Below are positions 2,765-63,440 of a stretch of DNA of 64,000 nt, one piece after another. A program made the position numbers and the translations under genes. The notes beneath the pieces are model-generated. The model worked only from the letters and a program-made list of their open reading frames with translations, ran no database searches and was not told where the DNA came from. Source of the DNA: Lepidostoma basale (lineage: Eukaryota; Arthropoda; Insecta; Trichoptera; Lepidostomatidae); assembly GCA_022606425.2 (NCBI GenBank), contig JAHDVF020000223.1:531501-595500 (forward strand), given 5' to 3'. The stretch's first letter is position 1; each line of letters opens with the position of its first letter.

Positions 2765-2998
2765 TCTATTGTTTTGGCCGAAACAATATAATAATTCAAC
2801 ATTATTGACTGTATATATTTAAAACGCTGTTATGGTATCAGATTTTTTTTAATTTTTCGTGATAGCCGTTTCTTTAAACTCTCCGCATAGACGAAAAAAA
2901 TTGTAACGCCTGATGATGCCAACATCGGTTGGCGAAACAGCTTCGCGAAAAAAATATGTTTTCCCATTACAGCGTTTTAAATTTTAACAGTTTAAAAT
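2765..2998. repeat. Foldback repeat family F2, copy 1
   Basis: Carries the family F2 core (a GCCAAC/GTTGGC stem-loop) and the F2 end sequence TTTTGGCCGAAACA near 2770-2785, which recurs at 33532 and, inverted, at 9740 and 11855. T-rich and A-rich flanks resemble those of the other F2 copies at 11620, 33525 and 35360. The outer ends are approximate. Confidence 0.6.
2909..2948 (+). ncRNA. Hammerhead-ribozyme-like motif, family F2
   Basis: CTGATGA at 2910-2916, one extra T, stem II GCCAAC (2918-2923) pairing with GTTGGC (2928-2933) over a 4-base loop, then GAAAC at 2934-2938. These are the two conserved boxes and stem II of a hammerhead ribozyme. The GAAAC is followed by AGC and then TTCGCG, so the short palindromic stem III seen in sister copies (ACAGCTGT) is broken here. 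The extra base between A9 and stem II is not part of the textbook core, so self-cleavage is uncertain. Confidence 0.55.
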
Positions 2999-3009
2999 AC
3001 AATACAAAT

Positions 3010-4190
3010 TTTTAATTATTTTTTTTATATTAATTTGTTCGTTTATTTACAATTTTTTTTTCGAGTAAACGAAGGCTGTATACCTTAAGTGATGTGTGTT
3101 GGCGAACGGGAAGTCGAAAGACAGAGACAACTATATTAGTCTCTCTCTCCGCTGGTAGGGCCGCCCCACGGTGGGCGGACTGCTGATGGCGCAGCTGCAG
3201 TAAACTAAGCATGTGTTGGTAACTTATAAACAAAAGTGCACTCGTGTTGTGCTGGTATTGGTAAGGGATATTGATTTTATCTATTTTAATACGCGCTTCT
3301 AATATGAAATATAATATCCACGGATATCATATATTCCCATACAGGAACTACGTTATTTTTCATAACTAGGCAACCAGAAGGTTACACGCGGTTTCAGAAT
3401 CAACAGGTCTATTGTTCGATCAACAACACTGAAACTCATATTTTTTTATTTATAAATCCCGTTTTCTAAAAATATTTATTTATAATGGTAATTGAATGTA
3501 CTCAAAACATTAATGTCTTTAATGGAATATATTTGGAATTATTTTTTTTTTTAAAACACTAAAAAAATATTCCAATACATATTGAGTCGACTTTTTAAAA
3601 TGAATTAAAACATTGTTTTTTACACTTTTCAGTTTATTTTTATTGACTTTATTATATCACCATCATTGAGAAAACGAAACAATGTGAGTTTATATCGTTC
3701 TTCCGATATTTAAGGTGTAAAACCTTGTATTAAATTAACAAAGAACTCCACAGGGTTAACGTCTAAAGTTTATCAAAAACTAATGTACCTACATTATTTT
3801 TTAACGCAACTGTTCTTTTAGTTTCGACCGGTTTGACAATTGGTCAGGTCTGTCAGTTGGTCAGTCGGTTTGATCAAGAGAGGACAACGAGTTCCCGAAA
3901 TCGGTAAATACTAAAATAACTATTGGAACAAAACCAAATATATATTTCAAATAATAGTTAATTTTTTTGTTAAATTATTGGTAATTACCCAGTTAAAAAA
4001 TATTTTTAACAAAGTCGCTTAATATATATTATTAAAATATATTCACATTTTTATTGCAGGTTAATTAAAATTTTCATTAAATATTGTTATTATTGTATGG
4101 CATATGCAGCGTTTTGCTCAAGACTATTATAGGTCACGTGTTAATCTAAAACCTGTGGCATGCACAAGTCAGTACACCTTTTTTTAATTG
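3010..4190. other. Unannotated sequence without recognised gene
   Basis: Mostly AT-rich. A short GC-richer island at 3090-3210 has no convincing coding frame. No RNA gene or transposon end recognised. Confidence 0.5.
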
Positions 4191-4282
4191 TTTCTTGAAC
4201 AATGATGTAAAACTCCATATTAAATAATTAATTTAAATGAAAACGTCAGTCGTCTAGAAGTTTTTTAATGTTTTATATGTAA

Positions 4283-4316
4283 TGACATGTTTCGTCCTTC
4301 CGAGGCATTATCAAAT
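4283..4316 (-). ncRNA. Hammerhead-like motif with U3-A8, family F1
   Basis: On the minus strand: TTGATAA (4314-4308), one extra T, a weak GCCT..AGGA stem, GAAAC (4293-4289), then ATGTC. The canonical CUGAUGA is changed at both bases of the C3-G8 pair, to U and A, so that pair is kept as U-A. Confidence 0.4.
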
Positions 4317-4320
4317 GTCA

Positions 4321-4353
4321 TTTGATAATGCTTTAGAAGGGCGAAACATGTCA
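4321..4353 (+). ncRNA. Hammerhead-like motif with U3-A8, family F1
   Basis: TTGATAA (4322-4328), one extra T, a GC..GC stem region, GAAAC (4343-4347), then ATGTC, giving the palindrome ACATGT. It mirrors the minus-strand motif at 4283-4316 across the palindrome centre. Confidence 0.45.
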
Positions 4354-5234
4354 TTCCATATAAAACTTTATAAAACTCCTAGAAGACAGACGTTTTCATT
4401 TATATTAATTAGGTAAAATTCCTATATAGAACTTTTTTTCAAATAGGTATATTTTCTAATATATCATATAAAATTAAACTTTAAAAAAATTACTATAAAG
4501 GAAAATATATTGTTTGTGATTAATAACACATATTTCACATTTGAATTAATAACAAATGGAAATTTCTGTTTGATTATAATAAAAAGATTGTGATGAATAG
4601 TTATAATGACAAATGAAAAATATTGTATTTTCGGAAAACAGACTTTCTTTACACTGTAGAAGGAAGAATGTGTTTCGGAAAACAGACTTTCTTTTTTGTG
4701 TAAAAACAATTATTCAGTTTCAGCATTTTGACTTATTGAAATAGGTCAACATACTTGTAAATTGAGCAATTTTTGTATGGCAACAAAATGAATGGTGCAG
4801 TCAAAACCATCATAATAATGCCCATTTCCCGTGGGTACGAGAATAAGGAACACAAAAATATATAGGTTTGTCTTCTGTGCCACCCGAAGTGGCTCAATAG
4901 TCCTATTCTAGAATGACAGACTTTGTCACCCTCCGGACAGGGATATTCTGCCCCTACGGCTGGACCCCGTCCTCTTCGTTTCTCCGGCCCCTGGCACATA
5001 GCGACTACTCTTCTCCACTCCGCCCTATCGGTTGCTAAGTGCTCAATACCAGTCCTTTTGTCTGTCTACATTCTTTACTGCAGTACGCAGGTTGTCCTTA
5101 TATCTCGTGTGCTGTTCTCCATGCTTCCTTTTCCAATCTAATAGTTCACTATTTAATATGATTTTATAATACATATATTTCTTCTTCATATAAAGCACTA
5201 ACTTTGTGGATAGACATTTGAAATAATTATATAA

Positions 5235-5335
5235 ATAAAACAACTTTGTATTTAACCACGGAAGGGTTATTATATTGATGCCAACTAGTTTCGCTTGGAC
5301 CCAAGCTTCATCAGGGCAGTATAATAACTAGTTAT
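5235..5335. repeat. Foldback repeat family F3, half copy
   Basis: Shares its upstream arm (5180-5290: AAAGCACTAACTTTGTGG, then CTTTGTATTTAACCACGG) with a decayed copy at 46565-46690. It contains one F3 ribozyme-like motif. The mirror arm is missing. Confidence 0.6.
5281..5316 (-). ncRNA. Hammerhead-ribozyme-like motif, family F3
   Basis: Minus strand: CTGATGA (5314-5308), one extra A, stem II GCTTGG pairing with CCAAGC over a two-base loop, GAAAC (5292-5288), then TAGTT, which makes the palindrome AACTAGTT. Both core boxes are canonical and stem II has six pairs. The stem sequence differs from other F3 copies yet still pairs, so the structure rather than the sequence seems to be kept. Confidence 0.6.
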
Positions 5336-5409
5336 TACATATATTTCTATTTGACGTGATGGCTTTGTATGTTAACAAAACCATCACTTCAAATATAAAT
5401 ATATCGACT

Positions 5410-6374: not shown

Positions 6375-6870
6375 AATAGTTAATACGAATGGAAACGTCT
6401 GTTTTTTAGAAGTTTTATTATATTTTATGGGAATTATACGTGTCACCTTTCTAAGGCATTATCAAATATATGGTACATATAAGCATAATCATGTGATATA
6501 CATTGGGAATTAAAAAGACTTCGTTTAATCCACTATTTTATATAATTTTATAAAATATTGAAAAACACGACAGGTTTCGGAGGATACCTCCATTTTCAGG
6601 TGTAAAAATATAACAAAAACTAAACAAAGAAAGACTAATAAAAAACGGATTTAAAATTCAAATTTAAAAATTAACCTGGGCTAAGTACTAACAATTATTT
6701 TTAAACAGTAAGAAATAATAAATAGGTACATGATGATAATATAATTTAGAAAAAAATACTGACACTGTGAACATTCGATAATGCCTTAGCAAGGCGAAAC
6801 ATTTGACTTCCATAAAATATAATAAAACTTCTAGAAAACAGACGAATTCATTAGTATTAATTATTATATA
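6375..6870. repeat. Family F1 foldback interrupted by a family F6 repeat
   Basis: The left F1 arm (6385-6480, GGAAACGTCTGTTTT..CATTATCAAAT) and right F1 arm (6775-6860, GATAATGCCTTAGCAAGGCGAAACAT..CTAGAAAACAGACG) are separated by about 290 bases that contain a different hammerhead-like repeat, F6. The right arm keeps the fullest F1 stem (GCCTT/AAGGC). The simplest reading is that F6 inserted into F1. Confidence 0.65.
6566..6600 (-). ncRNA. Hammerhead-like motif, family F6
   Basis: Minus strand: CTGAAAA (6599-6593), one extra T, stem II GGAGG/CCTCC with a TAT loop, GAAAC (6578-6574), then CTGTC. The G8 position is A while C3 is kept, so the 3-8 pair is lost. A second, weaker F6 copy is at 44346-44382. 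Confidence 0.4.
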
Positions 6871-7760
6871 CAGAGCTTACATCATTGTTCAATCATCAAT
6901 CTATTTATTTATTATATATAATAAAAGTTTTAACCAAAAACTACTAAGTCAGTTCTTTAAGCATCACTTAGGTATGTATGAAAGTGAAGCATAAAATGCC
7001 CACATGATGACGAATGGGTAAAAAAAAAACTCTTAATATACTGTATAATGCGAACATAATCATGTGTTTGAAATTTTAATATACTTTATTTATTGATCAT
7101 TTACCAAGTACGTGATTTTAATACCTCCCAATTGGGGTAACCCGTTCTAGGGAGGCATTCCTAGCACTCTATATAATTTCAATATATAATATTGTTTACA
7201 AATTTAGGGAACAATTAAGGAGAGCAACACATATCCTAAAGTGTATAACTTATAATTTATTGACTTATATAATATATAATACTATTTAAACACTATATTG
7301 TCTTATATAACATTATTTAAACTATTTACTTATTTTTGAAAATTATACTACATTCAAGCCGCCCTTTTTTAATGTCTCCGTAGTTACATATTTTTTGTAA
7401 CTGTGCATTGTCATTTTTTGTGTACATATACACGTTGGTGTTTTGAAATACCTTGCAATTCTTCAATAAGATCAATACACATTCGTAGAACACGGAGCGG
7501 AACGCCTGGCCATGGATCTAAACAATCCCCAATCGGAAGGGTGAGCAAAATATCAATATTTAGTTATGGCCTATTCATTCCCTGGATATGAATCCCATAG
7601 AAAACATCTGGCTTGACTAACTACTAAATATGAAAAAAAAATAATAATAAACCTAGTAACAAATTTATCAGAATAATCAGGGAAACTTCGATAAGAGACA
7701 AACGACGATTGGGTGGGTACAATGCTAATATTAAATTAAATCTTTTTCTTGCGTGTATAG
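6870..7760. other. AT-rich stretch without recognised gene
   Basis: Long A/T runs and a small GC-richer patch (7120-7170, 7480-7560). No coding frame with protein-like composition and no recognised repeat boundary. Confidence 0.5.
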
Positions 7761-9184: not shown

Positions 9185-9715
9185 ATTGAATGAGAGAACA
9201 ACGAACCATTAACTCGTTTCGCAAGGAATAGGTAGAGAGAATGGACCGTCACACTACTCTATCCTGACATTATTCGCTAGGTTCTTTCATATTCATACAG
9301 CGTGTCATACACACACGTCGATTCTTCCGATTCTTAACATGACCGACCTTTTTTAATTTATTGTATTTGGTCATGTCACGTTCTCCAAACACCTCAATAT
9401 TCTTCCTCACGTTTTCCTCGGTGTTCTTCTATTTCTGGTTCCATTTACATCGTAAACACATAATTTTTTACCATTCTTTCCATATGTCCAAACCATCTTA
9501 ATGATCCCTTCATTATTTTGTTCATAACACCATCATTCGCACAGCATTCACTTCTTATATTTGCATTCGACACTCTATCATACACAGACATTCGTCTAAG
9601 AGATCTCATTCTACTGCATTTATTCTACTTTTATCCTTCTTTTGCCAGTTCCATGCTTCGCTTCCATTCATAAGGGTCGGTAGAAGAACACCATTGTAAG
9701 TGTATTATTATTTTA
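9185..9715 (-). mobile_element. LINE-A fragment
   Basis: On the minus strand it covers the usual C-terminal half: LYGSEAWNWQK near 9670-9640, RRMSVYDRVSN near 9600-9570, GDVMNKI near 9545-9525, MVWTYGK-type sequence, and the family 3' end near 9215-9190 with GGTAGAGAGAATGGACC. No open frame survives. Confidence 0.75.
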
Positions 9716-9927
9716 TTTAATAATGTTTAAATATCATAGTGTTTCGGCCAAAATAATGGATTATTTATATTGTTTTATGTAACTTACCGAGCCTTTAAAG
9801 GTGTAATGAACCGACTTGAAGATTTTCGATTTTCCTTTTAATATATTTAAAATGTTTTTTAGAGACCTTTGGCCGGAGATTAATATGCGAAGAGACCAAA
9901 TTACGATCAAAAGTTAATTTAAATTAA

Positions 9928-10839: not shown

Positions 10840-11595
10840 ATAATGACAGTGCAGAATGATATATGCGAAGGAAATAAAGTTTCCACCCTTATGTAAGAAA
10901 ATTTAACTTGGAGTTGGAAGAAGAAGGGTGAAAGTAGGGTGTTGCATTATTTAAAACATTTGTGTACCATACTTGGTTTTTACAAAGTTCGGTTTGAGTT
11001 AGTAACCCTAACAAAGCTTCGCAGAGGCGAAACCGGTTATTTCGATAAAACAAAATAAAATTGTGTAAATACAAATAACACAAGGTTTCTAAATGAATTT
11101 TTGGAAATATTTCATTTTCATAAGTTGAATATGTTAACCTTTACGTGTCCCTTTAGTTATCATTATTTTGTACATGAGGTGCGGCCCTTTGTAAGGAAGT
11201 GAAACTTGGAGTTGGCAGAAGAAGGATGAAAGTAGGATAAATGCTATAGAAATAAAGTCACCACGAAAAATGTGCGGAAAAACAATGTATGATAGAATAT
11301 TTAATGATGAAGTAATAAAGACATGTAAAGCAGATGAATGAGTGATAAATATAATTGAGAAAGGATAACTTAGATGATTTGGACATATGGAACGAATGGA
11401 TGAGGAATAAATGGTTAAAAATATATTTACAAGTAGTGTGAATGGAAAAAGAAGTCGAGGAAGGCCAAGGGAGATATGGCATGATCAAATTATTCAATTT
11501 TATTTTAAGATAGAAAAATATGGCGATCTATCCTCTCTGCCTACCCCTCTGGGGAAACGGAGTGATGGTTAGTTTGTTAGTTAACTAGGTTTATT
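10840..11595 (+). mobile_element. LINE-A fragments in one orientation
   Basis: A short piece at 10845-10925 (ATGACAGTGCAGAATG to GTTGGAAGAAG) and a longer one at 11165-11595 with GAAGTGAAACTTGGAGTTGG, GGACATATGGAACGAATGG, GAAGTCGAGGAAGGCC and the closing GGAGTGATGGTTAG tail. Between them (11005-11039) is a degenerate ribozyme-like motif ending GCGAAACCGGTT, probably a decayed F3 copy. Confidence 0.7.
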
Positions 11596-11655
11596 ACTGT
11601 TAAAATTAATAACTGTGTTATATTATCACAATTTATTTTTATTCACTGAAAATGT

Positions 11656-11695
11656 CGCGACAGCTGTTTCGCCAACCGATGTTGGCATCATCAGG
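11656..11695 (-). ncRNA. Hammerhead-ribozyme-like motif, family F2
   Basis: Minus strand: CTGATGA (11694-11688), one extra T, GCCAAC/GTTGGC stem, GAAAC (11670-11666), then AGCTGTC, forming the palindrome ACAGCTGT before C. Both core boxes and stem II are intact; this is the best F2 example. Confidence 0.6.
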
Positions 11696-11728
11696 TGTTA
11701 CAAAAAACCCAGACAGTTTTTTGTAACA

Positions 11729-11770
11729 CCTGATGATGTCAACATTGGTTGGCGAAACATCTGTGGCGAC
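11729..11770 (+). ncRNA. Hammerhead-ribozyme-like motif, family F2
   Basis: CTGATGA (11730-11736), one extra T, GTCAAC pairing with GTTGGC (one G-T wobble), GAAAC (11754-11758), then ATCTGT. It mirrors the minus-strand copy at 11656-11695. Confidence 0.55.
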
Positions 11771-12084
11771 ATTCTCAGTGAATAATAATAAATTGTGATA
11801 TTATAAGTGTTATAAATTTAGCAGTAATAAATAATCTTGAAGTATTATATCATAGTCTTTCGGCCAAAACAATGGACTAGGTATTTAGCTAGTTTTAGTT
11901 ACTAAAAGACTTCACTGTTCCGCTAGTTTCAATCCAAGGTATTGGTTATTGGTAACATTTTTTTGCTGGTTCTTGGGATGCCACTTAGGCCTTTAATGTG
12001 GTAGTTTACCGTTGATTTCAACATTTGTATACATCAGGTTATTTGGACGCAATTACTGTATACATATTTTTACTTATTAAGTCT

Positions 12085-20215: not shown

Positions 20216-20276
20216 TAACTGTTTGAATAAAAAAAACTTTGTTATGAATATCACAATTGATTATATTTATCGCATC

Positions 20277-20310
20277 AGATGTTTCGCTAACCGATGTAAG
20301 CATCGTCAGG
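20277..20310 (-). ncRNA. Hammerhead-ribozyme-like motif, family F2
   Basis: Minus strand: CTGACGA (20309-20303), one extra T, GCTTAC/GTTAGC stem with one mismatch, GAAAC (20285-20281), then ATC. It lies inside a NOS1AP intron, antisense to nothing known and in the sense direction of the gene, so the host pre-mRNA would contain it. Confidence 0.5.
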
Positions 20311-22029: not shown

Positions 22030-22280
22030 ACGTGTATTCACCATCACTTTGTGTTGTGGATTCACATTTGATAAATTTTTGGAAACATTGTATTATCACA
22101 ACACTTTTTTGCGCTTTTCACAAACATGTCTCAGAACACTAACTTCCCTTCTTCAGTGTAGAATTTCAACTCATGTGTTATATTTAATTTATAATACATA
22201 CACTGAAGAAGAGGAGTTTGTGTCCCGAAACATGTTTGTAAAAAACACAAAAAAGTGTAATGATAATAAAATGTTTCTAA
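22030..22280. repeat. Foldback repeat family F5 with motifs on both strands
   Basis: Inverted arms AACATTGTATTATCACAACA..CACAAACATGTCTC (left) and GAAACATGTTTGTAAAAAACA..TGTAATGATAATAAAATGTTTC (right), centred near 22180. The minus motif (22125-22159) has CTGAAGA but GAGAC in place of GAAAC. Confidence 0.65.
22201..22238 (+). ncRNA. Hammerhead-ribozyme-like motif, family F5
   Basis: CTGAAGA (22203-22209), one extra A, a short GGA/TCC stem, GAAAC (22227-22231), ATGT. Boxes canonical; stem II is weaker than in the 35135 and 40531 copies. Confidence 0.45.
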
Positions 22281-22299
22281 AAAATTATTCAAAAATAAA

Positions 22300-25199: not shown

Positions 25200-26190
25200 A
25201 ACTAACTAACTAACTAACCATCACGCCGTCTCCCCGAAGGGGTAGGCAGAAAGAATGGACTGCCACACTTTTCTTTCCTGACATATTTCTCTCGCTTCCT
25301 CAACATTCATACATCGCGTCATGCACGCGACTCCTCACATAGCCGACATTCAATATTTGATTTATTTGATCGTGCCACGTTTTCCTCGGTCTTCCTCTAT
25401 TTCTGGTTCCATTTACATCATTAACATATAATTTTTTAACATTCTTTCTTCATTCATTCTTTCCATATGTCCAAACCATCTTAATGATCCTTTAATTATT
25501 TTGTTCATGACACCATCATTCGCACCGCATTCACTTCTTATATTTTTCATTCGGCACTCTATCATACACAGAGTATCCACACATTCTTCTAAGAGATCTC
25601 ATTTCAACTGCATTTATTCTACTTTCATCCTTCTTTTGCCAGTTCCATGCTTCGCTTCCATACATAAGGGTCGGTAGAAGAACACCATTGTGCACTGCCA
25701 TTCTAGCTTTTTTTGATAGGTTTTTAAACATACTACCTAAATCAGGAACTCAACTACTTGCTCCAAATTTTCACCATTCACGCTAATGTTGCAGACTGTC
25801 GTGGTTTCTTCCTTTTCAAAAATCATTACCTTGGACTTATTAACATTCATCATCAGATCACTTCGCATGCATACCTCATACATACAATTCACCAGGACTT
25901 GTAGTTCATGCTCGTTGTCTGCAAGAAGGACAGCGTCATCCGCATAAAAGAGACAGCTTACTGACACTCCGCTCATTTTGGCACCTACATCCAACCCTTT
26001 CAGCTCTTTCATACATTTGTCCATATACAGATTAAATAACCAAGGGGACATTACGCAACCCTGTTTGACACCTTTATTGATATCAAACCAGGCTGTAAGA
26101 TCTCCATTTACTCTGACACTAGCAGTGCTTTCTGTGTATAGCGACTTAATTGCCGTGATCAGTTTTTTACTTATTCCATGCGTATAAAAC
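25200..26190 (-). mobile_element. LINE-A, longest copy (reverse transcriptase end to 3' tail)
   Basis: The best guide to the LINE-A protein. Minus strand from 26051: MSPWLFNLYMDKCMKELKG (after a likely QGCVMSPWLF motif B in the broken part upstream), then SVSCLFYADDAVLLADNEHE with the catalytic YADD (motif C), and LMMNVNKSKVMIFEKEE (motif D). A frame change leads to ARMAVHNGVLLPTLMYGSEA, then RRMCGYSVYDRV. The remaining sequence gives FGHMERM-type and GRPRKTWHDQIN-type motifs and ends GGGAGACGGCGTGATGG with four TTAG units at 25200-25215. It has several stops and frameshifts and is inactive. The YADD box and closing motifs fit an RTE- or CR1-related non-LTR element; the clade needs a phylogeny. 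Confidence 0.85.
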
Positions 26191-26299
26191 GATAAATAGT
26201 AGAATAAGATGATGGAACATCACACTCCTAAAACAATCATTCAACCATACTTATATAATATTGTATATAATTTATTGTCAAGTAAATACTACCTCAAAC

Positions 26300-26479: not shown

Positions 26480-26850
26480 CATTTTAAATAATGAAAACAT
26501 TTTTTTTTGTGAAACAAAATACGAGTATCTTTATTATTATGTATTTAATGTGTTTCCACTTGTGTTTATGTTCGACCGGTTTCGGCAGCTTGGACCAGAC
26601 GATGGCAGCAAGCTGCTGAAACCGGTCGAACATATACACAAGTGGAAGCACACCAAGTTCATAATAAAGAAATTTTGTTTCATTTTTTTCTTGTTTTCAT
26701 TATTTAAATAACTAACTAACCATCACGCCGTCCCTCTGGAAGGATATGCAAAAATACTATGGTAATAGACCGCCGAATTGTTTTGTCTTGACATACTTTT
26801 CTCGTTTCTTTCTATATTCTAAATCGTGTCATACACCTTTGCGTCAATTG
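26480..26850. repeat. Family F4 foldback followed by a LINE-A tail
   Basis: F4 palindrome centred near 26598: arms CACTTGTGTTTATGTTCGAC / GTCGAACATATACACAAGTG and AAGAAATTTTG..TTTTCATT. The plus motif (26595-26630) has GGCAGC-AA-GCTGCT and GAAACCGGTC but AGACGA instead of CTGANGA. A LINE-A 3' end (minus) begins at 26705 with ACTAACTAACCATCACGCCG. Confidence 0.65.
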
Positions 26851-27789: not shown

Positions 27790-28270
27790 TTGATAGAAGT
27801 TTATTGTAAATAATGAAAAAAAAAATGTATTAACAAAAAATTCTGTACAATATGAATTTAATATCTTTTCAATTGATTTTATGGTTTTGAAAGCTTCGAC
27901 TAGAAGATGGTAGTATGTGCCTAAACCGGTCAAAATCATAAAATCAAGTGAAATTTAACCTAATATATATTAAAAAGTATTTAATAACGTATATTTTTAA
28001 ATAAAATAAAGTTTTTAATTTCGTTGGAATTAAAAAAAACATTTTTAAATAATCGATAATTATTCATCATCTATCAATTTTCTTACAAAAATTAATAAAT
28101 GCCAAAACAGAATGAGGTTTCAATATTATCAAACGTTTATGGTAATTTTAAAACAATGTTATAAGGTGTGCCACAATTTACTTATTTATTAATCTGTAAA
28201 TTGTCCTGACAGCTGTTTCGCCAACCATGTTGACATCATCGGGTGTTACAACTAACAGACTATTTAATAT
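27790..28270. repeat. Decayed F4 and F2 repeats
   Basis: An F4 remnant at 27860-27960 (AGAAGATGGTAGTATG.. CTAAACCGGTC) and an F2 motif on the minus strand at 28207-28243, which has CCGATGA, a GTCAAC/GTTGGC stem and GAAACAGCTGTC. The F2 copy lacks only U4 of the core. Confidence 0.55.
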
Positions 28271-32155: not shown

Positions 32156-32359
32156 GTCACACCACAAATTGAGTGCTTCAAAAGAAAGTTTAAAAAATAA
32201 TATTACGATTTTAAACAAAACAGTGGCCTAAATTGATGATTAGAAATGAGAGGCTTACTTTACTGGTGGGATAAATATGGTATTTTATCATTTGGATTGA
32301 CTAAAATCTAGCAATTACTAAATGGGTAATTCTTGGTTAATTTGATTAATTAATAACTG

Positions 32360-33740: not shown

Positions 33741-33752
33741 ATATTATTTTAA

Positions 33753-35240: not shown

Positions 35241-35359
35241 TATCTTGTATTTGTGTTCACCATAGTTTTTCACCAAAAGCTGCCTGCAATCCATAATAAA
35301 AACTGCTTCTAAATGGGTTTTGTATTTTATAAAAATTAAATATATTTAAAAAATTTTAA

Positions 35360-35535: not shown

Positions 35536-35539
35536 TAAG

Positions 35540-36290
35540 TTATCAAAGTGATTATTGATTATTTTATTTTTTATATTAAGTTTTATTTTTTTATGAACAT
35601 TGGAAATTCATCTTATTTTTTAGTTCGCTATGTAAAAGCTGCTGTAATCTACAAACATATACAATCACATAGTCCACAGACAAAAAAAATACAACCTACA
35701 CCGATGGTTCCGGGTCCGATTCCTGACAAAGACAGTGTGAAAAAAATAATTCTCACGCTCACTTTGGTCTTGTTAAATTTACGAGACAATAAAAATGTTG
35801 AAAATCTAGCTATGTCATATGAATCAATAGCTTTAAAATGTATACATTCTTCGTTAGTTTAGTTCCATCCACTGCTGGATATAAGCGTCTCCACCTCCAC
35901 GCCATTCCTCCTCTCCTGGCCCTACCCGCCATCCACATAATATCTTCGCTCCACCTGGAAGGCTGTCTTCCGACACTTCTCCGGCCCAACCTTGGCCTCA
36001 ATTCAGTAACATTCTGGTTCCATCTTCCATCATCCCGTCGGCACACAGTCCAAATCACCAAATTAACTACCAAATTAACAAAAGGACCAAGAGGCATCCC
36101 AAGAACTAGCATAGATGTTAATATTCTTTACTGAAAATTAATCCCTAGGAATTAAAGTTAAAATAAATAGCGAACAAAGATATTAATAAGTTTTTAACAC
36201 TGAGGAATTCCTACAAGTAGGAAAGAAAAGTGTGGTGATCTATTCTTTCTGCCTACCCTTTCGGGGAGACGGCGTAATAGTTCGTTAGTT
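35540..36290. other. Mixed sequence with LINE C-terminal remnant and LINE-A tail
   Basis: 35860-36060 is GC-richer; on the minus strand it reads WRRLYPAVDGTK and RWSEDIMWMAG, similar to the RW.DDI..IAG end of RTE-like LINEs. A LINE-A 3' end (plus) is at 36220-36295 (GGAAAGAAAAGTGTGG to GGGAGACGGCG). Confidence 0.5.
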
Positions 36291-39649: not shown

Positions 39650-40085
39650 GTATCATTTGACTGATGAACGGTAATCATCGAATGCATATTCATTTTAATT
39701 GTTATCATCGTTTTGTTTTAGCAAATGTGCATATTATGTCTTAGAAATATTAAAAAAGACCTGCAATCAACAACAGATTAAAATTAAGTATTTTGAGACG
39801 TCTATTATGAAAATATTAAATCAAAAAAAGTAAACACAATGCATACATGGTGAATGATGTAGATAACTTTCCATATTCAGTGCCAGTTTTCAATAATAAA
39901 AGCGACATCAAAGGACGAGTTGACTTTTTGTTATCATTTCAAAAATTATTTTTTGATGTAAATGTATGCATAATTAAAAAAAAAATACAACATGATTTTC
40001 TTCTTTATGTACGACATCGATTATTGTTAAACAATATACTGAACATAAAAATATATTTATTTCGATTTGAAAGAATAGTATTGTA
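39650..40085. other. AT-rich sequence without recognised gene
   Basis: A 79-codon frame (39847-40086) has AT-driven composition and no domain; not called. Confidence 0.5.
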
Positions 40086-40320
40086 GGTATAAATTAATAC
40101 AAATGAAAACGTCTATCTTCTAGGAATTTAATAAAAAAAATATATGTAATGGATTGTTTCGATCTTAGTACATTAACAAATGATACTGACAAAACTTTGA
40201 TTTGTACACATTGGTAACACATTTGATAATGTTTTAGAAGGCGAAACATGTCATAATAAAATTCCTAGAAGACAGACGTTTTCATTTAAATAAATTATGT
40301 AATATGGAGTTTAATATAAT
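40085..40320. repeat. Foldback repeat family F1
   Basis: Left arm AAATGAAAACGTCTATCTTC and right arm GAAGACAGACGTTTTCATTT around a partly decayed centre. The plus motif at 40222-40253 has TTGATAA, one extra T and GCGAAACATGTC. Confidence 0.7.
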
Positions 40321-40397
40321 TTATTTTTCTTTTTCTTTTTTTTACCCTTTGTATATACAACACTGATTTAAAAAAAATAAACATAAATATACTCGTA

Positions 40398-40428
40398 CAT
40401 GTTTCGGACAAACAGTCGTTCTTCAGTA
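40398..40428 (-). ncRNA. Hammerhead-ribozyme-like motif, family F5
   Basis: Minus strand: CTGAAGA (40426-40420), one extra A, CGAC/GTCC with one mismatch, GAAAC (40405-40401), ATGT. Boxes canonical. Confidence 0.5.
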
Positions 40429-40530
40429 AAGATACATATTTATAAAAATATTATAAAATTGTTGTTGTTTACATGATCTGACACATGTTATAAAGATTTA
40501 TTTTATAATTTTTATATAAATATGTATCTT

Positions 40531-40565
40531 TACTGAAGAAGGACTGTTTGTCCGAAACATGTCTT
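40531..40565 (+). ncRNA. Hammerhead-ribozyme-like motif, family F5
   Basis: CTGAAGA (40533-40539), one extra A, GGAC (40541-40544), loop TGTTT, GTCC (40550-40553), GAAAC (40554-40558), ATGTC. This is the cleanest F5 example, with palindromic stem III ACATGT. Confidence 0.6.
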
Positions 40566-40689
40566 TATAATTATATTTTTTAAATATCAATGTTGTATAT
40601 ACAAAGTGTATAAAGTATAGCGTATACAAAAGTAATTTTATATCATTGTTCAAGAAACAATTAATATTGTAAGTATTCCTAATAAAAAA

Positions 40690-41395
40690 ACGAGTATAAA
40701 TTATAAATCCTTTTCTATTAATTGAAATTTGCCTTTTCTTCTTCGTCTCCGTTTCTTGGGATAATTCAAATTAATTTGACATGTTAGATAGGATTCATTT
40801 AATATATATAAGATTCCTCGCAGCTCCCTCGAATATCCATTCTGTATGAAATACATTTCTCTTTCAGATTAAAGAAAGCCAAGTAAATGCCAATGATCTT
40901 ATTTTTACCATACACGTATAAAGTTCAGGAAGCACAATTTAATCAAAATTAAATTACCTTCACATATAAAAATAAGAAATGTTTTTCAGAACCAGTGTCT
41001 GAAGATTTTTCTAGAACCTTGCTTCGGATTATGTTTCAGGATATTTCATCACATGTCAAAATAATGTCGGCTTGCTTATCAGTGGTTGTCAGCTCTTTGA
41101 ATGATTTATCACTTTGTCTATTCTTTCCGAACGGTGTCATATCTCTAATCCATCCGATATATCTTCAAATTTGTTGAGAAAACATTAATTAAATGTAAGA
41201 AGTTTTTATACGGAAATATTTTTTCCAAAAAATTGGAAAATTTTGGATTTTAAAAATAACAATTTATATTATTGGTGACATTAAAAATACATATTATGAA
41301 AATATGAAAACACACTAGGGATGCTGTAAATTTTTTTTGAAAATAAAATAAAATGTCTTCTATATTCGCCATACTTTGTGTTGTTATGATGCTTT
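40690..41395. other. Sequence without recognised gene
   Basis: AT-rich with a unique, mixed region at 40980-41170. Nothing recognised. Confidence 0.45.
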
Positions 41396-41720
41396 ATCCT
41401 TATTTTTTTATATACTTTGTATATACAACACTTATATTAAAAAATAAAATTACATAGACATGTTTCGAACGACCAGTCCTTCTTCAGTGATACATATTAT
41501 AAAGATACAAGTTTATAATATAATAATATTGTTTACATGATCTGACAGAAAACATCTAACATCTGTCAGACCATGTAAACAATTTTATAATATTTTAAAT
41601 TTGTATCTTTATAATATGTATCAATGAAGAAGGACTGGTTGTCCGAAACATGTCTATGTAATTTTTTTTTTTAATATAAGTGTTGTATAAACAAAAGTAC
41701 ATAAAAAGAAAAAGAGAAAT
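41395..41720. repeat. Foldback repeat family F5, second complete palindrome
   Basis: Arms ACATAGACATGTTTCGAACG / CCGAAACATGTCTATGTA and inner CATATTATAAAGATACAA / TTGTATCTTTATAATATG. The plus motif (41621-41656) has ATGAAGA in place of CTGAAGA. Confidence 0.8.
41456..41489 (-). ncRNA. Hammerhead-ribozyme-like motif, family F5
   Basis: Minus strand: CTGAAGA (41487-41481), one extra A, GGAC pairing with GTTC (one G-T wobble), GAAAC (41466-41462), ATGTC. Boxes canonical. Confidence 0.55.
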
Positions 41721-41804
41721 AACATATCCAATTGTGAGACAAATGGTTTGATTTTTGATTTAAATTCAAATAATTATTTATTTATATTGTTTGTTGTTTC
41801 TTGA

Positions 41805-41995
41805 ACAATCATGTAAAACTCCATATTAAATAATTAATAAATGAAAACTAAGAGTTTTATAAAGTTTTATATGGTCTACTTGAAGATGGCAGCAAGCTAC
41901 CGAAACCGGTCGACGATAAATACAAGTGGAAGCACACTAAATATATAATAATAAATAAATTTGGTATCATTTTTTTTGTTTTCATAATTTAAAAT
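41805..41995. repeat. F1 left arm fused to an F4 right half
   Basis: F1 flank and arm (TTCTTGAACAATCATG, AACTCCATATTAAATAATTA) run into F4 (AGATGGCAGCAAGCTACC, ACAAGTGGAAGCACACTAAA). The plus F4 motif at 41880-41913 has TTGAAGA, one extra T, GGCAGC/GCTACC and GAAACCGGTC. Confidence 0.65.
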
Positions 41996-46734: not shown

Positions 46735-47440
46735 TTGTATATATGGAAGCGAAGCATGGAACTTGCAAAATAAGGATGAAAGTAGAATAAATGCAGTAGC
46801 AATGAGATCTCTTAGACGAATGTGTGTACACTCTTTGTATGGTGTCAAATGAAAATATAAGAAGTGAATGCGGTGCGAATGATGGTGTTATGAACAAAAT
46901 AATGAAAGGATCATTAAGATGGTTTGGACACATGGAAAGAATGAATGAAGAAAGAATGTTAAAAAAATAAAAAGGTGCATATGTTAACTCTGTGCATGAT
47001 AGAGTGTAGAATGAAAATATAATAAGTGAATGCGATGCGATTGAAAGTGTTATGAACAAAATAACGAAAGGATCATTAATATGGTTTGGACACATGGAAA
47101 GAATGAATAAAGAATGAATGGAATAAAGGGTGTGTTAACGATGTAATGGAACTAGAAATAGAGGAAGACCGAGGAAAGATAAAAAAAATCAAGAAAACGT
47201 GGTAAGAAAGAAAGATCAAGAAAACGTGGTAAGATCAAAAAAATCAAATATTAAATGTCGGCCACGCGAGGAGTCAGAGAAATCGAGGCACGTGTATGAT
47301 ACGATGTATGAAATATGATGTACGTGCATGATACGATGTATGAGGAGAGAGAAATATGTCAGGAAAGAAAAGTGTGGCAGTCTATTCTTTCTGCCTACCC
47401 CTTCGGGGAGACGGCGTGATGGTTAGTTAGTTATAATTTG
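46735..47440 (+). mobile_element. LINE-A copy with internal duplications
   Basis: Starts at the YGSEAWNLQNKDESRI part and repeats the segment with GTTATGAACAAAATAA, GGTTTGGACACATGG twice (46870-46945 and 47045-47105). AAGAAAACGTGGTAAGA (47190, 47215) and GTGCATGATACGATGTATGA (47300, 47330) are also doubled. It ends GGGGAGACGGCGTGATGG and TTAG repeats at 47403-47430. Confidence 0.8.
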
Positions 47441-47545
47441 TATTGTTTTGTATATAAACCACTTTATTCGTGGTTAACACCAAACCGGTTTCGCTCCCGC
47501 AGGAGCTTTATCAGGGTAACAGAATATTCTGATCTTATGGCAAAT
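47440..47545. repeat. Family F3 half copy
   Basis: Arm AAACCACTTTATTCGTGGTT and a minus motif at 47481-47517: CTGATAA (C3 kept, G8 changed), GCTCC/GGGAGC stem, GAAACCGGTT. Confidence 0.6.
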
Positions 47546-48230: not shown

Positions 48231-48327
48231 TTTTTTTTTTCACCCTTTACATCGATTTGGCTCGCGCTGTAATGATGTAAGAAGTTTTTTCAACAAAGTA
48301 ATAATAATAATAATAATAATAATAATG

Positions 48328-48365
<38 letters not shown>
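48230..48365 (+). mobile_element. SINE 3' end with long (TAA)n tail
   Basis: CACCCTTTACATCGATTTGG, CTCGCGCTGTAATGATGTAA, then AATAATAAT units from 48299 to 48365. It matches the SINE end at 57365-57420. Confidence 0.65.
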
Positions 48366-48367
<2 letters not shown>

Positions 48368-48990
48368 TCCATTAAAACTTCACAAATTACACATTTAAAA
48401 TGATAATTGCATGAAAATGATGTAGTTGAGATCAGTTAATTATTTCGAATGTGATTAAGTTTCTTGAATAAACATTTCATTGTGCATTATGAAAAGTGAG
48501 AACGTAAAGTAAAACCTCGATGAGCTCAACACGTTAACGTTAAACACAGTAACAAAAACAAAACCATTTCATTAGTAGTTACATACAACGCTCTTTGAGA
48601 GAAATACTAGAAGAGTATATTCGGTCGAAGAAAATTTTAAGATTCTTTCTCGTTAATAGCGTGCGGAGCAGAGTAACTCAAATCCCAAAAGCTCTACGGA
48701 AAAGGCTGGCTTAATAAGCCCTACGTACCGCAGAAAGGGGAAAGTTTGAAGTTTTTAATTATCACGGAAGGCTTGACCGATTTCCGGCACTAAAAGGTTG
48801 AGGTTGATTAAATACCCCGTCTATAAGTGGGAGTCAATAGGAGACGGTATCCTTCACGACTCCGCCAAGTATTAGCCGACAAATTCGTGTTTGGTAGAAC
48901 CAAACTTTCTCAACCCTAATACTCGTATGTTATTACAGCCGAAAAAATATTATTACGACAATCACTTGATTATTTATTAATAATGATTGC
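48366..48990. other. Sequence without recognised gene
   Basis: Unique, mixed composition. Nothing recognised. Confidence 0.45.
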
Positions 48991-49599: not shown

Positions 49600-50190
49600 C
49601 GTAGAATGAAATAAAATTTCTTGAAAAGAGATGTTTTCATTTGTATTCATTATTTCATATCATTGTTTAAGAAACAATAAACAATTAAATCGATGTTTTT
49701 TCATACTCAAACAAAATTACTAATTTCAAATATCAAGATACAGATATAAATCTATCAATTTAATAATAAATCAAAACTTATTAATTATTTCTTGAACAAT
49801 GATATGTTATAAAAATCTGTATTAAATAATTAATACGAATGTAAAATTCTGTTTCCTAGAAGTTATCATTGTATTTTAAAAGAATGACATGTTCCGGCTC
49901 TCTCGCATTACCATATGTTAACAAATGCTCCAACATTTGATAATGATTTAGCATGGAGAGCAAGGAACCGAAAAGTTGGTAGTCCATAGGAGCAAGATCA
50001 GGGGAGTAGGGTGGATGATTCTAAACAGACTAAATTAATGAAAACGTCTGTTTTCTAAATGTTTAATTCTATTTTACGGGAATGACACTATATTATTAAA
50101 TATCCTTAACAAAGCGACAAATGTCATTCCCATAAAATATATTGAACCTTATAGAAAACATACGTTCTTTATTGTTTTAATTATTTAAAA
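49600..50190. repeat. F1 arms joined to a mariner transposase fragment
   Basis: F1 arms at 49605-49680, 49795-49935 and 50035-50180. At 49964-50030 (minus) the sequence encodes HPPYSPDLAPMDYQLFGS, the conserved third-aspartate region of mariner transposases, directly joined to an F1 arm start (AAATTAATGAAAACGTCTG). The same join occurs at 54885-54970. Confidence 0.7.
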
Positions 50191-52190: not shown

Positions 52191-52340
52191 ACAACTCTTG
52201 GCTCCTAATCTAGTGGACAATCGTGAAGATAAACCGATTCTTCGTTAATTTATAATAGTAAACACGATTTGTTTAGTTTTTTTTTACTTGGATTAAATTG
52301 ATATAAATTATATAAATAGTGACAAATTTGATTCTCCAGT

Positions 52341-52380
52341 CAGTTTGAGAATGCCCTCGCAAGGCGAAACAAATTTGTCA
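52341..52380 (+). ncRNA. Hammerhead-like motif with U3-A8, family F7
   Basis: TTGAGAA (52345-52351), one extra T, GCC/GGC stem (GCCTT/AAGGC in the sister copy at 63061), GAAAC (52366-52370), then AAATTTGTC, which makes the palindrome ACAAATTTGT. As in F1, both partners of the C3-G8 pair are changed together. Confidence 0.5.
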
Positions 52381-52383
52381 CTA

Positions 52384-52670
52384 ACCTAACTAACCATCAC
52401 GCCATTACCCCGGAGGGGTAGGCAGAGAGGATGGATAGCCACAATGCTCTGTCCTGGCATACCTCTCTGGCTTCCTCTACATTCATACATCGTACCATAC
52501 ACGCACGTCGATTATTCCGACTTCGAATGTGGCCGCCTTTTAGTAATTGATTAATTTGGTAATGCCATGTTTTCCTCGGTTGTCCTCGGCTTCTTTTTCC
52601 ACTCACGCTGCTTGTGTACAACTTTTTAACCATTCTACTCTCATCCATTCGTTCCATATGTCCAAACCAA
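52384..52670 (-). mobile_element. LINE-A 3' end with target-site duplication
   Basis: The minus frame reads NWFGHMERMDESRMVKKLYT, SVSGKRSRGQPRKTWHYQIN, then MNVEEAREVCQDRALWLS and ILSAYPSGVMA, and the tail GGGTAATGGCGTGATGGTTA. The frame is open over about 95 codons, and 9-base target duplications flank it. It is the cleanest C-terminus of the family and a recent insertion. Confidence 0.9.
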
Positions 52671-52745
52671 TTGTCACTATTTATATAATTTATATAAATT
52701 AAATCCAAGTAAACCCACTAAATAATCGTGTTTACTATTATAAAT

Positions 52746-53290
52746 AAATAACCGAGTTTTACACCTCAACCATTAACAAACCGGTTTCTTCTTCATAATA
52801 AATTAATACAATATTTTTTCTTACGTTAAAGATTGCACAATTTTTTTTTTAAATGTTCAATTTAATAAGTAGGTAAGTCTTAAAAAAGTCACACCGAAGT
52901 GATAAAATAGGATCTATTTAATGAACCATTATTTAGTGTTTTTAAAAAACATTTTTGAAGCCTATGTTTTTTAAGGCGTCACACATTGACCATGGTCGCC
53001 CTAATGGTCAATTTGTACTGGAGAGATAAAAATATTGTTATTTTTTATCGTTCTTTTGTATTCTGGAGATTTTCAGGGATCCACATAACCCGCCGTCTTT
53101 TACGATTATATCTTAACATTTTGAGGGTTTGTTGTACACGTGTAATAAGCGTGTTGAGAACCGGATTCAAAACTATTTTTATAAATATCTATATTTTTAA
53201 ATAATAATTATCGCACACAATGTGTTTCTCTGGCGCTGTCATCATTCTCTTATTCAGTTATTAGGTAAATAATAAAACATTTAATCTACA
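52746..53290. other. Sequence without recognised gene
   Basis: AT-rich. A 72-codon frame (52986-53204) has no domain. Confidence 0.45.
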
Positions 53291-56400: not shown

Positions 56401-56574
56401 TAAGTTATGGTATTCGAAAGGAAGGAATGTATGACGGATTGTAACATAAGTGCGAACTTACTTATCTAGTAAACATGATGGAAAAATGGAAGAAGACATG
56501 GGAAAAAGGGTTGGTGCTACCTATTTTTTGTGATAATAAATCATAAAATATATATGTATATATTAAATTGATAA

Positions 56575-56760
56575 ACTTGTAAATTTGTATTAAAACCACA
56601 TTCTTACATATTTACAACAACCAACCGGTTTTACTCCCGAACAGTGTCTTTTGTAACCCTGACGCAGCTCCGGCGGAAGCGAAACCGGTTAGTTATTGTA
56701 AAGAATAAAGTAGTTTTTTATACAAATTTACAAGTTTATTAATATTATATTTATTTTTTT
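56575..56760. repeat. Foldback repeat family F3
   Basis: Arms ATTAAATTGATAAACTTGTA / TACAAGTTTATTAATAT and AACAACCAACCGGTTTTACT / GCGAAACCGGTTAGTTATTG. The plus motif (56657-56692) has CTGACGC (A9 changed), one extra A, GCTCC/GGAAGC and GAAACCGGTT. Confidence 0.7.
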
Positions 56761-58425: not shown

Positions 58426-58670
58426 TAATATTAAGTAATATAAATGAAAACGACTTTCTTTTAGGAGTTTTATTATATTTTAGATAGAATGAAATGTTTC
58501 CCCTTTCTAAGGCATTATCGAATTAAACTTTTGATAATGCTGTAGAAAGGCGAAACATGTCATTATATCTAAAATATAATAAAACTCCTAGAAGAAAGAC
58601 GTTTTCATTTATATTAATAATTTAATATGGATTTTTACAACATTGTCAAAGAAACAATCATCTTTATTTG
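58425..58670. repeat. Foldback repeat family F1, complete palindrome
   Basis: Arms AATATAAATGAAAACGACTT / GACGTTTTCATTTATATT and ATATTTTAGATAGAATGA / TCATTATATCTAAAATAT, centred near 58525. Confidence 0.8.
58529..58563 (+). ncRNA. Hammerhead-like motif with U3-A8, family F1
   Basis: TTGATAA (58531-58537), one extra T, weak GC..GC stem, GAAAC (58552-58556), ATGTC. The minus mirror (58492-58522) has TCGATAA and GGGGAAAC. Confidence 0.45.
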
Positions 58671-60015: not shown

Positions 60016-60039
60016 ATATTTTTTTTTTCTTTTAATTGT

Positions 60040-60900: not shown

Positions 60901-60904
60901 ATTA

Positions 60905-61440: not shown

Positions 61441-61654
61441 TATTTTATATATAAAAAAGCTGTTTTTTTTTACTTTCAAGTTTTTTTTCTCGAGAACGAT
61501 ATAATTTCATATAGTTCTCTTGATGATGAAGGTGTAAAACGCCATAAAAATGTGTTAAAATTCATTTAAATATTATAATTCCACAGTTTTGATGCCTAAA
61601 GTTTATAAACAATATTTTCTTGTTATTATATTTTATGCATCTTCAATTGGTTGT

Positions 61655-61775
61655 CAGCAAAGTGACGTGAATTCTTCACCAGACCAATGACAGTGTGACA
61701 ATCACACTTCCATCACGGGGAATCGAACCCGGGACCTTCGACATGGCAGTCATAGCTCTTACCCCTTACCCTTGT
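61655..61775 (-). mobile_element. tRNA-derived SINE, copy 4
   Basis: Minus strand: AAGAGCTATGACTGCCATG, then GTCCCGGGTTCGATTCCCC (61735-61717, B box), body with GTGTGATTGTCACACTGTC. Confidence 0.7.
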
Positions 61776-61824
61776 TAGTATTGTGTTATTCCTCTGTTAT
61801 TAAAAATAACAGTTTTGTATAATA

Positions 61825-62110
61825 TTAACTAACTAACTAACTAACCATCACGCCGTCTCCCCGAAAGGGTAGGCAGAAAGAATGGACTGTCACACTTTTA
61901 CTGATGCGGCACTCCATCCTTCTCTTTTCGTCCCGCGGGAGACGCGGTGTGATGGGTTGCGAACCTCATCGCCACCAATAGGCATCTCCCGCGCACACCA
62001 CGATCGTCCAACACCGACAAAATAAATCTAAAACAAATAATATAAAATACAATGATATAAAATAAAATAACAAAATAAAATAAAATAAAAATATATAATA
62101 TTAATATATG
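61825..62110 (-). mobile_element. Short non-autonomous element sharing the LINE-A 3' end, copy 3
   Basis: Four TTAG units and CCATCACGCCGTCTCCCCG at the 3' end (61827-61863), CTGATGCGGCACTCCATCC, GGTTGCGAACCTCATCGCC, GCGCACACCACGATCG and the AT-rich middle. The CCGGATCGTCC head is lost. Confidence 0.7.
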
Positions 62111-62495
62111 AATATTTTTGAAATGTAGACATATAATTACAAAAATGCATTGGGAATTTTTATTTCGAAATGTCCGTGCCTCAAAGAAAAGTATCGGGGG
62201 ATTATTTTTAATTTATAATTTTTTTTTTTTTTTCATAATAAATTTCACAAGCCGCCATTGAATTGTGTCATGTTCCAAATGACATCGGATGATAATGCAA
62301 CTCGAAGCGTTACACGTCTATCCTTCACCAAGGCGTACAATAGTAAACTGAGGTATATTATGTTAACACCCCTTGTCGTGTTCCATTTCCGGAACCTTAC
62401 ATTTAATCATACAGTTGTTATCGTGGCACTATTCAAATGACATTTTAAGTACACGTAAATCCTGATAGAACTTGTTGTCTTAAATGTATTTATAA
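62110..62495. other. Sequence without recognised gene
   Basis: Unique. A 60-codon frame at 62258-62440 has no domain. Confidence 0.45.
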
Positions 62496-62497
62496 CA

Positions 62498-62990
62498 ACA
62501 AACCATCACGCCGTTTCCCCGCAGGGGTAGGCAGAGAGAATGAACCGCCACACTACTCTATCCTGACATACCTATGTAGATTCCTCCACATTCATACAGC
62601 GAGTCATACACGCATGTCGAATCTTCCGACTTCTGACATGACCAAACTTTACAATTTAATTAATTTGGTCATGCCATGTTTTCCTCGGTCTATCTCGACT
62701 CCGTACTCCATTTACATCGTTACATATACTTTTTTAACCATTATTTTTCAAGCATGCGCTCCATATGTCCGAACCATCGATTGATCCATTCATAATTTTG
62801 TTCATATGTCGTTTTTTTAGACTTTTACCATGGAAAAACTTTAAAAATTGATTAATTTAGTCATGCCATGATTTCCCGGGTCACGGTCGACTCCGTACTC
62901 CATTCGCATGGTAAACGTATACTTTATAAACCATTATTTCATACCATAAGTACAAACCATCGCTCTAATCTTTTCAAAATTTTGTTCATA
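62498..62990 (-). mobile_element. LINE-A subfamily with TTGT-type tail
   Basis: 3' end AACAACAAACCATCACGCCG at 62495-62514, then GGTAGGCAGAGAGAATGAAC, GACATACCTATGTAG, GGTCATGCCATGTTTTCC. A second overlapping stretch (62835-62990) repeats the CATGCCATGATTTCC to ACCATCGCTC part, so two copies or a duplication are present. Confidence 0.65.
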
Positions 62991-63440
62991 TTATAATAAT
63001 TTATAATAGTAAATACGATTGTTTAGTGGATTTATATAAATTGTGACAAATTTGTTACGCCTTGCGAAGGCATTCTCAAACTGAACCCAATCGCCAAACA
63101 GTGTGTCCTAATATTGAATTTAGAAATCTTAAGGGTGGGGGAGAAAGTATACGAGTATAATGCAATTTTTTGAGTTGTTTAATAAAACAATCTTAAAAAG
63201 TATTTAACAACTCAAAAATTTCCAAACAATCATAATTTTTATTTATTTAATACTCAAAAATTTGCAAAATAAACTTTCTCCCCCACCCTTAAGATTTCTA
63301 AATTCAATATAAGGACACACTGTTTGGCGACTGGGTTCAGTTTAAGAATGCCCTCGCAAGGCGAAACAAATTTGTGACAATTTATATAAATTAAATCCAA
63401 GTAAAAACACTAAGCAATCGTGTTTACTATTATAAATTAA
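62990..63440. repeat. Foldback repeat family F7, complete palindrome
   Basis: About 440 bp. Outer arms TTATAATAGTAAATACGATT / AATCGTGTTTACTATTATAA, middle arms GACAAATTTGTTACGCC / GGCGAAACAAATTTGTGAC, inner arms AAATCTTAAGGGTGGGGGAG / CTCCCCCACCCTTAAGATTT. The minus motif (63044-63083) keeps TTGAGAA and GCCTT/AAGGC but has GTAAC. The plus motif (63338-63378) keeps GAAAC but has TTAAGAA. Confidence 0.8.

Follow-up and report, generated by a model that had tools for sequence, protein, structure and literature searches.

Head-to-head palindromes carrying a hammerhead-like motif in Lepidostoma basale: probable footprints of Penelope-like elements

A 64,000-nucleotide stretch of the genome of the trichopteran Lepidostoma basale (assembly GCA_022606425.2, contig JAHDVF020000223.1, positions 531,501 to 595,500; hereafter the window) contains some two dozen small elements bearing a hammerhead-ribozyme-like motif, many of which consist of two mirror-image copies placed head to head. 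Judged from their sequence, these palindromes are very probably solo pairs of inverted pseudo-long terminal repeats (pLTRs) of Penelope-like elements (PLEs), devoid of an open reading frame (ORF) and each resulting from one insertion. The DNA displays the motif, its stem II, a palindromic stem III, the head-to-head layout, a tail on one side only, two target duplications and one nested insertion. The elements were assigned to PLEs, despite the lack of a PLE protein in the window, because the order and distance of these features fit.

The window was scanned on both strands for CUGANGA, a spacer and GAAAC. This pattern matched 14 times, and all 13 sites that an earlier note on this DNA had listed as having both boxes were recovered within a few bases; the extra match, at 15270, was not among the sites with a 4-bp stem II. 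When stem II had to span 4 bp or more, the strict core occurred at 11 sites versus 0.11 per dinucleotide shuffle (100 shuffles), and with a palindromic stem III at 8 sites versus 0.01; with a loose core, the corresponding figures were 16 versus 0.87 and 12 versus 0.04. A covariance model trained on nine sites from families A, B, G and H yielded 57 matches at E ≤ 10, of which 22 had E < 0.02. The latter comprised the nine training sites and 13 others, including five from families outside the training set (E twice, J, D and C). Our catalogue holds 33 motif arms in about ten families (Table 1); counts were made without a MAFFT alignment of all arms, which put families E and H one column off. One further candidate, at 41880, was detected by the trained model (E 0.049), which brings the total close to the "about 35" sites first reported. 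With the core far above shuffle expectation and the trained-model matches, the original observation as a whole was confirmed.

The nine two-motif pairs found within 400 bp were all head to head: each joins motifs of the same family, 8-310 bp apart, which face outwards in inverted arms. Another seven motifs (A0, A2, A3, C3, F1, G3 and I2) have an inverted partner arm in which the motif is lost or broken, and eight (A4, A5, B, C5, D, G2, H0 and J) have no clear partner. Full-length palindromes include A1 (11590-11831, 86%), G1 (31943-32140, 91%), H2 (41393-41719, 87%) and C4 (58424-58626, 87%), and the palindromes hold no long ORF. Their inner junctions vary, being symmetrical in A1, whereas the right arm of A3 starts inside stem II and that of A2 beyond the motif. 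Among the seven A arms that have a motif, similarity sets in 9-12 nt before the core. Measured from the core's first base, tail-less arms of families A and C extend for about 80-105 nt and tailed ones for 130-150 nt. Neither directly tandem motif pairs nor tandem arrays with units above 27 bp were found in the window; motifs of one family on the same strand came closest between H1 and H2, two separate palindromes, at distances of 1061 and 1091 bp. The flanks had been described as unrelated, which does not hold for families C and I, which are related, nor for A, B and G, which have pieces of their 3' ends in common.

The outer ends of the two arms are not alike. In seven palindromes (A0, A1, A2, C1, C2, C3 and C4), exactly one arm carries an extension of 30-40 bp, and no palindrome with two tails was detected with the tail queries. 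The family A tail contains TTTCGGCCAAAA; a query taken from A2 matched one arm each of A2, A0 and A1, and a solo copy at 9725. The A0 tail is partly self-complementary, giving a further 21-nt match on its other strand, and A3 was not matched, although its right arm reaches into the first part of the tail. The C tail query, taken from C1, matched one arm each of C1, C2, C3 and C4 (in C3 in two pieces around H1), and also several solo or rearranged C copies. The G1 extension is found on the right arm only, which shares 29 of 29 bases with the copy at 9698, whereas the left arm shares 12; a B-related copy near 46.6 kb also matches this extension. At 49602-49681 and 49781-49878, two tailed C arms lie tail to tail, unlike the palindromes, probably through independent insertion or rearrangement. 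Families B, G and H have in common an ATACAAA(G) motif close to tail-less 3' arm ends (at about 35190-35202, 40347-40361, 32114-32124 and 5242-5253); this motif is a candidate AC-rich start site of reverse transcription.

Target duplications were searched for at 14 palindromes, allowing one mismatch and deriving p from 400 random pairs. C3 is flanked by TATTGTAGGTAT / TATTGTAAGTAT at 40079 and 40665 (12 bp, p about 0.0125) and A2 by TAGATTATTTTAAA / TATATTATTTTAAA at 33509 and 33740 (14 bp, p about 0.005); in both cases, one repeat of the duplication lies directly against the tail's end and the other against the arm that has no tail. Those of A3, C1 and I1 had p 0.065, and the remaining nine palindromes gave nothing. 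The H1 duplication, TTTAATATAATT / TTTTATATCATT, was read by eye and, with 10 of 12 positions alike, lies beyond the one-mismatch limit. H1 is nested in the tail of C3, and the same tail is continuous in C1; the H1 palindrome therefore entered as one unit. A copy of a long interspersed nuclear element (LINE), tried as an empty site for G1, gave no result.

Could such palindromes be foldback or miniature inverted-repeat (MITE-type) DNA transposons, mobilized by a transposase that acts on the arms as long terminal inverted repeats, with a core that is incidental or captured? They are near-perfect over roughly 200-450 bp, the outer ends of F1 are identical over 17 bp, several families occur in one window, and target-site duplications are unclear in most copies, as this would allow. 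Symmetrical terminal inverted repeats with a duplication of constant length were, however, not observed: the arms are asymmetrical, with the extension on one of them only, the inner junctions differ within a family, and the two clear duplications differ in length. Moreover, a motif covarying at stem II and at pair 3-8 (see below) has no role in such transposons. We consider this explanation unlikely.

From its sequence, the motif is well supported as a hammerhead, because stem II varies yet stays paired, the core pair 3-8 switches, and the motif is more conserved than the DNA that follows. The type I boxes CUGANGA and GAAA are present around stem II. As had been noted, the stem II sequences differ among families with their pairing kept, and covariation between families is apparent: at the level of family consensus, 97.5% of the four outer pairs are standard versus 59.8% after re-dealing of the 3' letters (0 of 5000 re-deals as high), a figure inflated by the many sites found through having a stem II, for which the shuffle scan is the fairer test. 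Pair 3-8 is Watson-Crick in 29 of the 33 arms, as C-G in 18 and U-A in 11 (all eight of family C and three of family I), and is broken in four (C-A in D, G2 and J; A-G in H2R). Probably this change reflects one or two evolutionary switches. Covariation of C3-G8 to U3-A8 is described in natural hammerheads (PMC3088659; this and the other papers cited are represented here by parts of their text). A reading of family C as dead, from its TTGATAA box, was rejected when the box was reread as containing a U3-A8 pair.

Between copies in different palindromes, motif identity was 84, 80, 87 and 86% in families A, C, H and G, respectively, against 52, 69, 62 and 54% over the next 60 nt; for the 12 nt upstream of the core, it was 81, 40, 42 and 62%. 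This comparison covers 23 of the 33 arms, and copies with a badly decayed motif would be missed. The "one extra base" of the earlier note was borne out: with the offset left free (0-2), exactly one base separates A9 from stem II in 20 of the 22 listed arms, and at offset 1 it is A or T in 33 of 33. Stem III is palindromic at 12 of 16 loosely scanned sites and, with G-U allowed, in 24 of 30 arms; having no loop, it can pair between two copies only. A hammerhead-like core with a palindromic stem III, as originally put forward, is supported by these data. At base 17, the cleavage site, 15 of 30 arms have C, 8 have U, 5 have G and 2 have A (G1R being mis-set). Thirty arms were also scored for stem I against random 3' flanks from the window, as a rank of 300. 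The stem I of solo arm B (4 bp, an internal loop and 9 bp) ranked 1, and helices adjoining the core ranked 4 in ER and 16 in both D and EL. A5 and A4 ranked 1 and 10, but with the helix some bases off the core, and the remaining 24 arms ranked 29 to 277; the ranks of G1R (stem III length mis-set) and of G3R and I1R (starts one base off) are unreliable. Solo arm B has at its 5' end (5322-5337) an AT-rich palindrome around AACTAGTT; this is identical to its stem III palindrome, which would also allow B to pair in cis in the manner of a type III hammerhead. The earlier note did not mention the head-to-head palindromes, the one-sided tails, the stem I of some arms, the U3-A8 variant or the broken 3-8 pair of some copies.

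One could argue that there is no ribozyme and that the hammerhead resemblance is the shared ancestry of one repeat lineage. The families may indeed have one ancestor, with 3' ends partly common, the extra base is present in all arms, stem I is weak or the core broken in some families, and two similar hammerheads from an insect and a cnidarian were inactive in vitro as single RNAs (PMC3088659). Yet stems II and III vary in sequence with pairing kept, U3-A8 compensates for C3-G8, the motif outlasts the following DNA in conservation, and B has a first-ranked stem I. This makes the absence of a ribozyme quite unlikely.

Inverted head-to-head pLTRs and a 30-40-bp tail on one of them, both present here, are features of PLEs. 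Penelope elements of the rotifer Adineta vaga (Pen families) have inverted pLTRs, most often head to head, optionally with a 31-bp tail on one; they are flanked by 8-10-bp duplications, and one pLTR begins, at its 5' end, with a palindrome of 18 bp (PMC3846280). The elements of the window resemble them in the head-to-head repeats (their pLTRs measure 181-218 bp and our arms roughly 100-150 bp), the optional tail of about 31 bp on one repeat, the 5'-end palindrome of some pLTRs and, in the two palindromes where they are clear, short target duplications. Unlike them, the pairs described here stand alone, without an ORF, a direct pLTR or a reverse transcriptase, and their sources are not seen; solo pLTRs are also mentioned for A. 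vaga (PMC3846280). In Anolis Penelope, reverse transcription has two neighbouring internal start sites, of which the main one is 111-118 nt into the ORF, and the DNA that separates them forms the tail, "unique to PLEs". Cutting and extension affect both strands of the target, the ORF has a hammerhead at its start, and hammerhead mutants still inserted in vitro (PMC11167929). This element (PAc; Poseidon, Anolis carolinensis) is like ours, as modelled below, in the start-site distance, a second start site giving a 30-40-bp tail and AT-rich targets, whereas it has tandem copies with an ORF, its hammerhead needs protein, and both strands use the same start sites in vitro. The minimal type I hammerheads of PLEs and those dispersed in animal genomes (PMC7761336, PMC6155905, PMC7229834) have the same core, an absent or palindromic helix III and many sequence families per genome (16 in Acropora millepora); in contrast, close pairs in the window are inverted rather than tandem, two families have a U3-A8 core, and arm boundaries are resolved. 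Repeat-type hammerheads of Aedes aegypti are likewise insect repeats, and dimer pairing has been proposed for their palindromic stem III; unlike here, the text covered (PMC3088659) mentions no element built as a palindrome. The link to PLEs that had been proposed is supported by the inverted arms, the one-sided tail and a ribozyme near the presumed start of reverse transcription. We regard the elements as further members of this known type, the palindromes being at most non-autonomous derivatives. Among the literature matches listed, no paper dealt with a lepidopteran hammerhead or with a solo-pLTR palindrome with a hammerhead, which is weak evidence of novelty.

In our model, a PLE enzyme encoded elsewhere would begin complementary DNA (cDNA) synthesis downstream of the core, about 80-150 nt from its first base, and copy back through the ribozyme to the nearby 5' end of the RNA. 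If both ends of a cut AT-rich target were used, two short cDNAs would meet head to head, one from the outer start site and with the tail, the other from the inner site and without it. Since synthesis from the start site has to pass the ribozyme before it reaches the RNA 5' end, most short copies would keep it; in our catalogue, which was seeded by the motif, 33 of about 40 arms retain the ribozyme. Selection on the ribozyme would have acted in the source elements, a view favoured by the conservation of the motif. Most palindromic copies would then be footprints, and in a copy transcribed whole, the hairpin would bury the ribozyme. Folding of A1 alone predicted one long hairpin (-149.8 kcal/mol, z -25). 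That the genomic palindromes are footprints rather than working ribozymes appears more likely, because in this predicted fold the motif pairs with its mirror copy and because no pair is directly tandem.

The arrangement of the motifs does not support the earlier suggestion that they work as dimers: dimer-active eukaryotic hammerheads reportedly need tandem copies (PMC6466107), whereas the nine two-motif pairs are all inverted, same-strand motifs of one family are at least 1061 bp apart, and A1 pairs with itself. Retrozymes, small circular RNAs cut by a hammerhead and re-inserted, as in corals, mussels and axolotl, share with the elements a type I layout, short non-coding AT-rich repeats and a palindromic stem III resembling dimer-type hammerheads, but are highly unlikely here, given that the elements have neither the stable helix III (PMC7761336) nor the tandem arrays of short length (PMC7229834) described for invertebrate retrozymes, that close pairs are inverted, and that copies of a circle cut after position 17 would presumably be permuted at the cut, whereas the seven A arms begin 9-12 nt ahead of the core. 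Of the earlier interpretation, the hammerhead-like core, the palindromic stem III and the Penelope link are supported, whereas dimer action, the retrozyme comparison and the unrelated flanks are not.

Several observations weigh against an origin from PLEs with a hammerhead. Neither a PLE reverse transcriptase nor a GIY-YIG endonuclease was found in the window, by Pfam on 20 of the 28 ORFs of at least 100 aa and by a motif scan. The Pfam search gave two RVT_1 matches, in ORFs taken for LINE fragments; there was, as previously stated, no sign of a Penelope reverse transcriptase in the ORFs scanned. The Rfam hammerhead families gave no match in the whole window at the gathering threshold or at E ≤ 10, and none at all in a scan of the stretch with G1R. 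The best score was 16.2 bits versus a threshold of 48.5, obtained with Hammerhead_3 (the type III model) on site B, where the extra base aligned as an insertion. Rfam miRNA "hits" at 63052-63369, 58463-58589 and 11671-11751 are motif-bearing palindromes, and IMG/VR pattern scans for close copies returned none. An extra base precedes stem II, and a core-adjacent stem I is convincing in B, D and E only, with nothing in C, I and J. The arms were partly picked by motif and stem II, so that conservation and pairing figures are inflated, and in family A, but not in C, H or G, conservation is as high in the 12 nt preceding the core as in the motif itself. The tails of H1 and H2 are weak (one each, E 5e-4 and 0.005, where a place in AT-rich background scores 0.002), as is that of I1 (a 13-nt match on one arm, E 0.22). 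Clear duplications were obtained for 2 of 14 palindromes only, with about 0.7 of 14 expected by chance at p < 0.05.

LINE 3' ends (TAACTAACTAACCATCACGCC...) directly adjoin hammerhead elements at 11521-11579, 26709-26754, 33750-33808, 47370-47433 and 52386-52443. The arms were considered as parts of a LINE with a TAACTAAC end; since only 5 of 27 LINE 3'-end matches adjoin arms and the others are differently flanked, these were taken as chance neighbours. For a LINE fragment at 25740-26219, seven homologues were obtained at E ≤ 0.001; the named one, which is not among the best two, is from the moth Hyposmocoma kahamanoa (47% identity, 59% coverage), and repeat ends in the window also have a lepidopteran look. 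The window also contains a 181-aa open frame without a Pfam match (1748-2290, minus strand), possibly a host exon, and a (TAA)23 microsatellite (48299-48368).

Table 1. Motif-bearing elements and related copies in the window (positions count from its first base; strands of cores and tails in brackets).
Feature	Position	Strand	Description
Palindrome A0	2762-2994		Left arm without motif, tail 2763-2800 (-); right arm with hammerhead-like core 2910-2945 (+)
Palindrome C1	4183-4419		Cores 4282-4314 (-) and 4322-4354 (+), both U3-A8; tail on left arm only, 4183-4219 (-)
Solo arm B	5281-5314	-	Hammerhead core, best stem I
Element C2	6369-6914		Inverted arms, cores 6433-6465 (-) and 6775-6808 (+); tail on right arm 6877-6900 (+)
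Core D	6567-6599	-	Between the C2 arms
Solo 3' end	9698-9757	+	G-type arm end, then A-type tail, without motif
Core J	11008-11040	+	CTAACAA, decayed
Palindrome A1	11589-11879		Cores 11658-11694 (-) and 11730-11766 (+); tail on right arm 11848-11878 (+)
Solo arm A4	20273-20309	-	
Palindrome E	22067-22293		Cores 22121-22156 (-) and 22203-22238 (+)
Core C5	24877-24909	-	U3-A8; rearranged copy
Palindrome F1	26483-26708		Core 26596-26629 (+), CAGACGA, U4 to A
Solo arm A5	28207-28242	-	
Palindrome G1	31943-32157		Cores 31990-32023 (-) and 32059-32092 (+); extension on right arm only
Palindrome A2 with 14-bp duplication	33509-33753		Duplication 33509-33522 / 33740-33753, 1 mismatch; core 33624-33660 (-); tail on left arm 33523-33561 (-)
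Solo arm H0	35136-35169	+	
Palindrome A3	35350-35553		Core 35405-35441 (-); right arm begins in stem II
Element C3 with 12-bp duplication	40079-40676		Duplication 40079-40090 / 40665-40676, 1 mismatch; core 40223-40254 (+); right-arm tail split by H1
Palindrome H1	40322-40635		Nested in C3 tail; cores 40394-40426 (-) and 40533-40565 (+)
Palindrome H2	41393-41722		Cores 41455-41487 (-) and 41624-41656 (+)
Candidate core F2	41880-41913	+	
Solo arm G2	47481-47514	-	C3-A8 mismatch
Element I2	52245-52763		Core 52345-52377 (+), U3-A8; right arm broken off after 52382, resumes near 52687
Palindrome G3	56557-56753		Core 56659-56692 (+)
Palindrome C4	58424-58658		Cores about 58489-58521 (-) and 58531-58563 (+), both U3-A8; tail on right arm 58626-58658 (+)
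Palindrome I1	62994-63455		Cores 63047-63079 (-) and 63342-63374 (+), U3-A8

The role of minimal type I hammerheads in these retrotransposons has been called a mystery (PMC7761336). In the elements described here, edges can be seen in the form of two arms, one tail, a target duplication and a nested insertion, and this ties the ribozyme to the Penelope start site. It is possible, though we put it forward only tentatively, that dispersed minimal hammerheads of animals are mostly scars of one Penelope-type insertion route rather than working ribozymes. Along that route, and this too is a tentative proposal, both target ends might be opened and the first and second ends use different start sites, giving a head-to-head pLTR pair with exactly one tail. 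If this is true, single-tailed palindromes are predicted around dispersed minimal hammerheads in many animals, and one tail per palindrome provides a countable signature for testing models of Penelope insertion in any genome.

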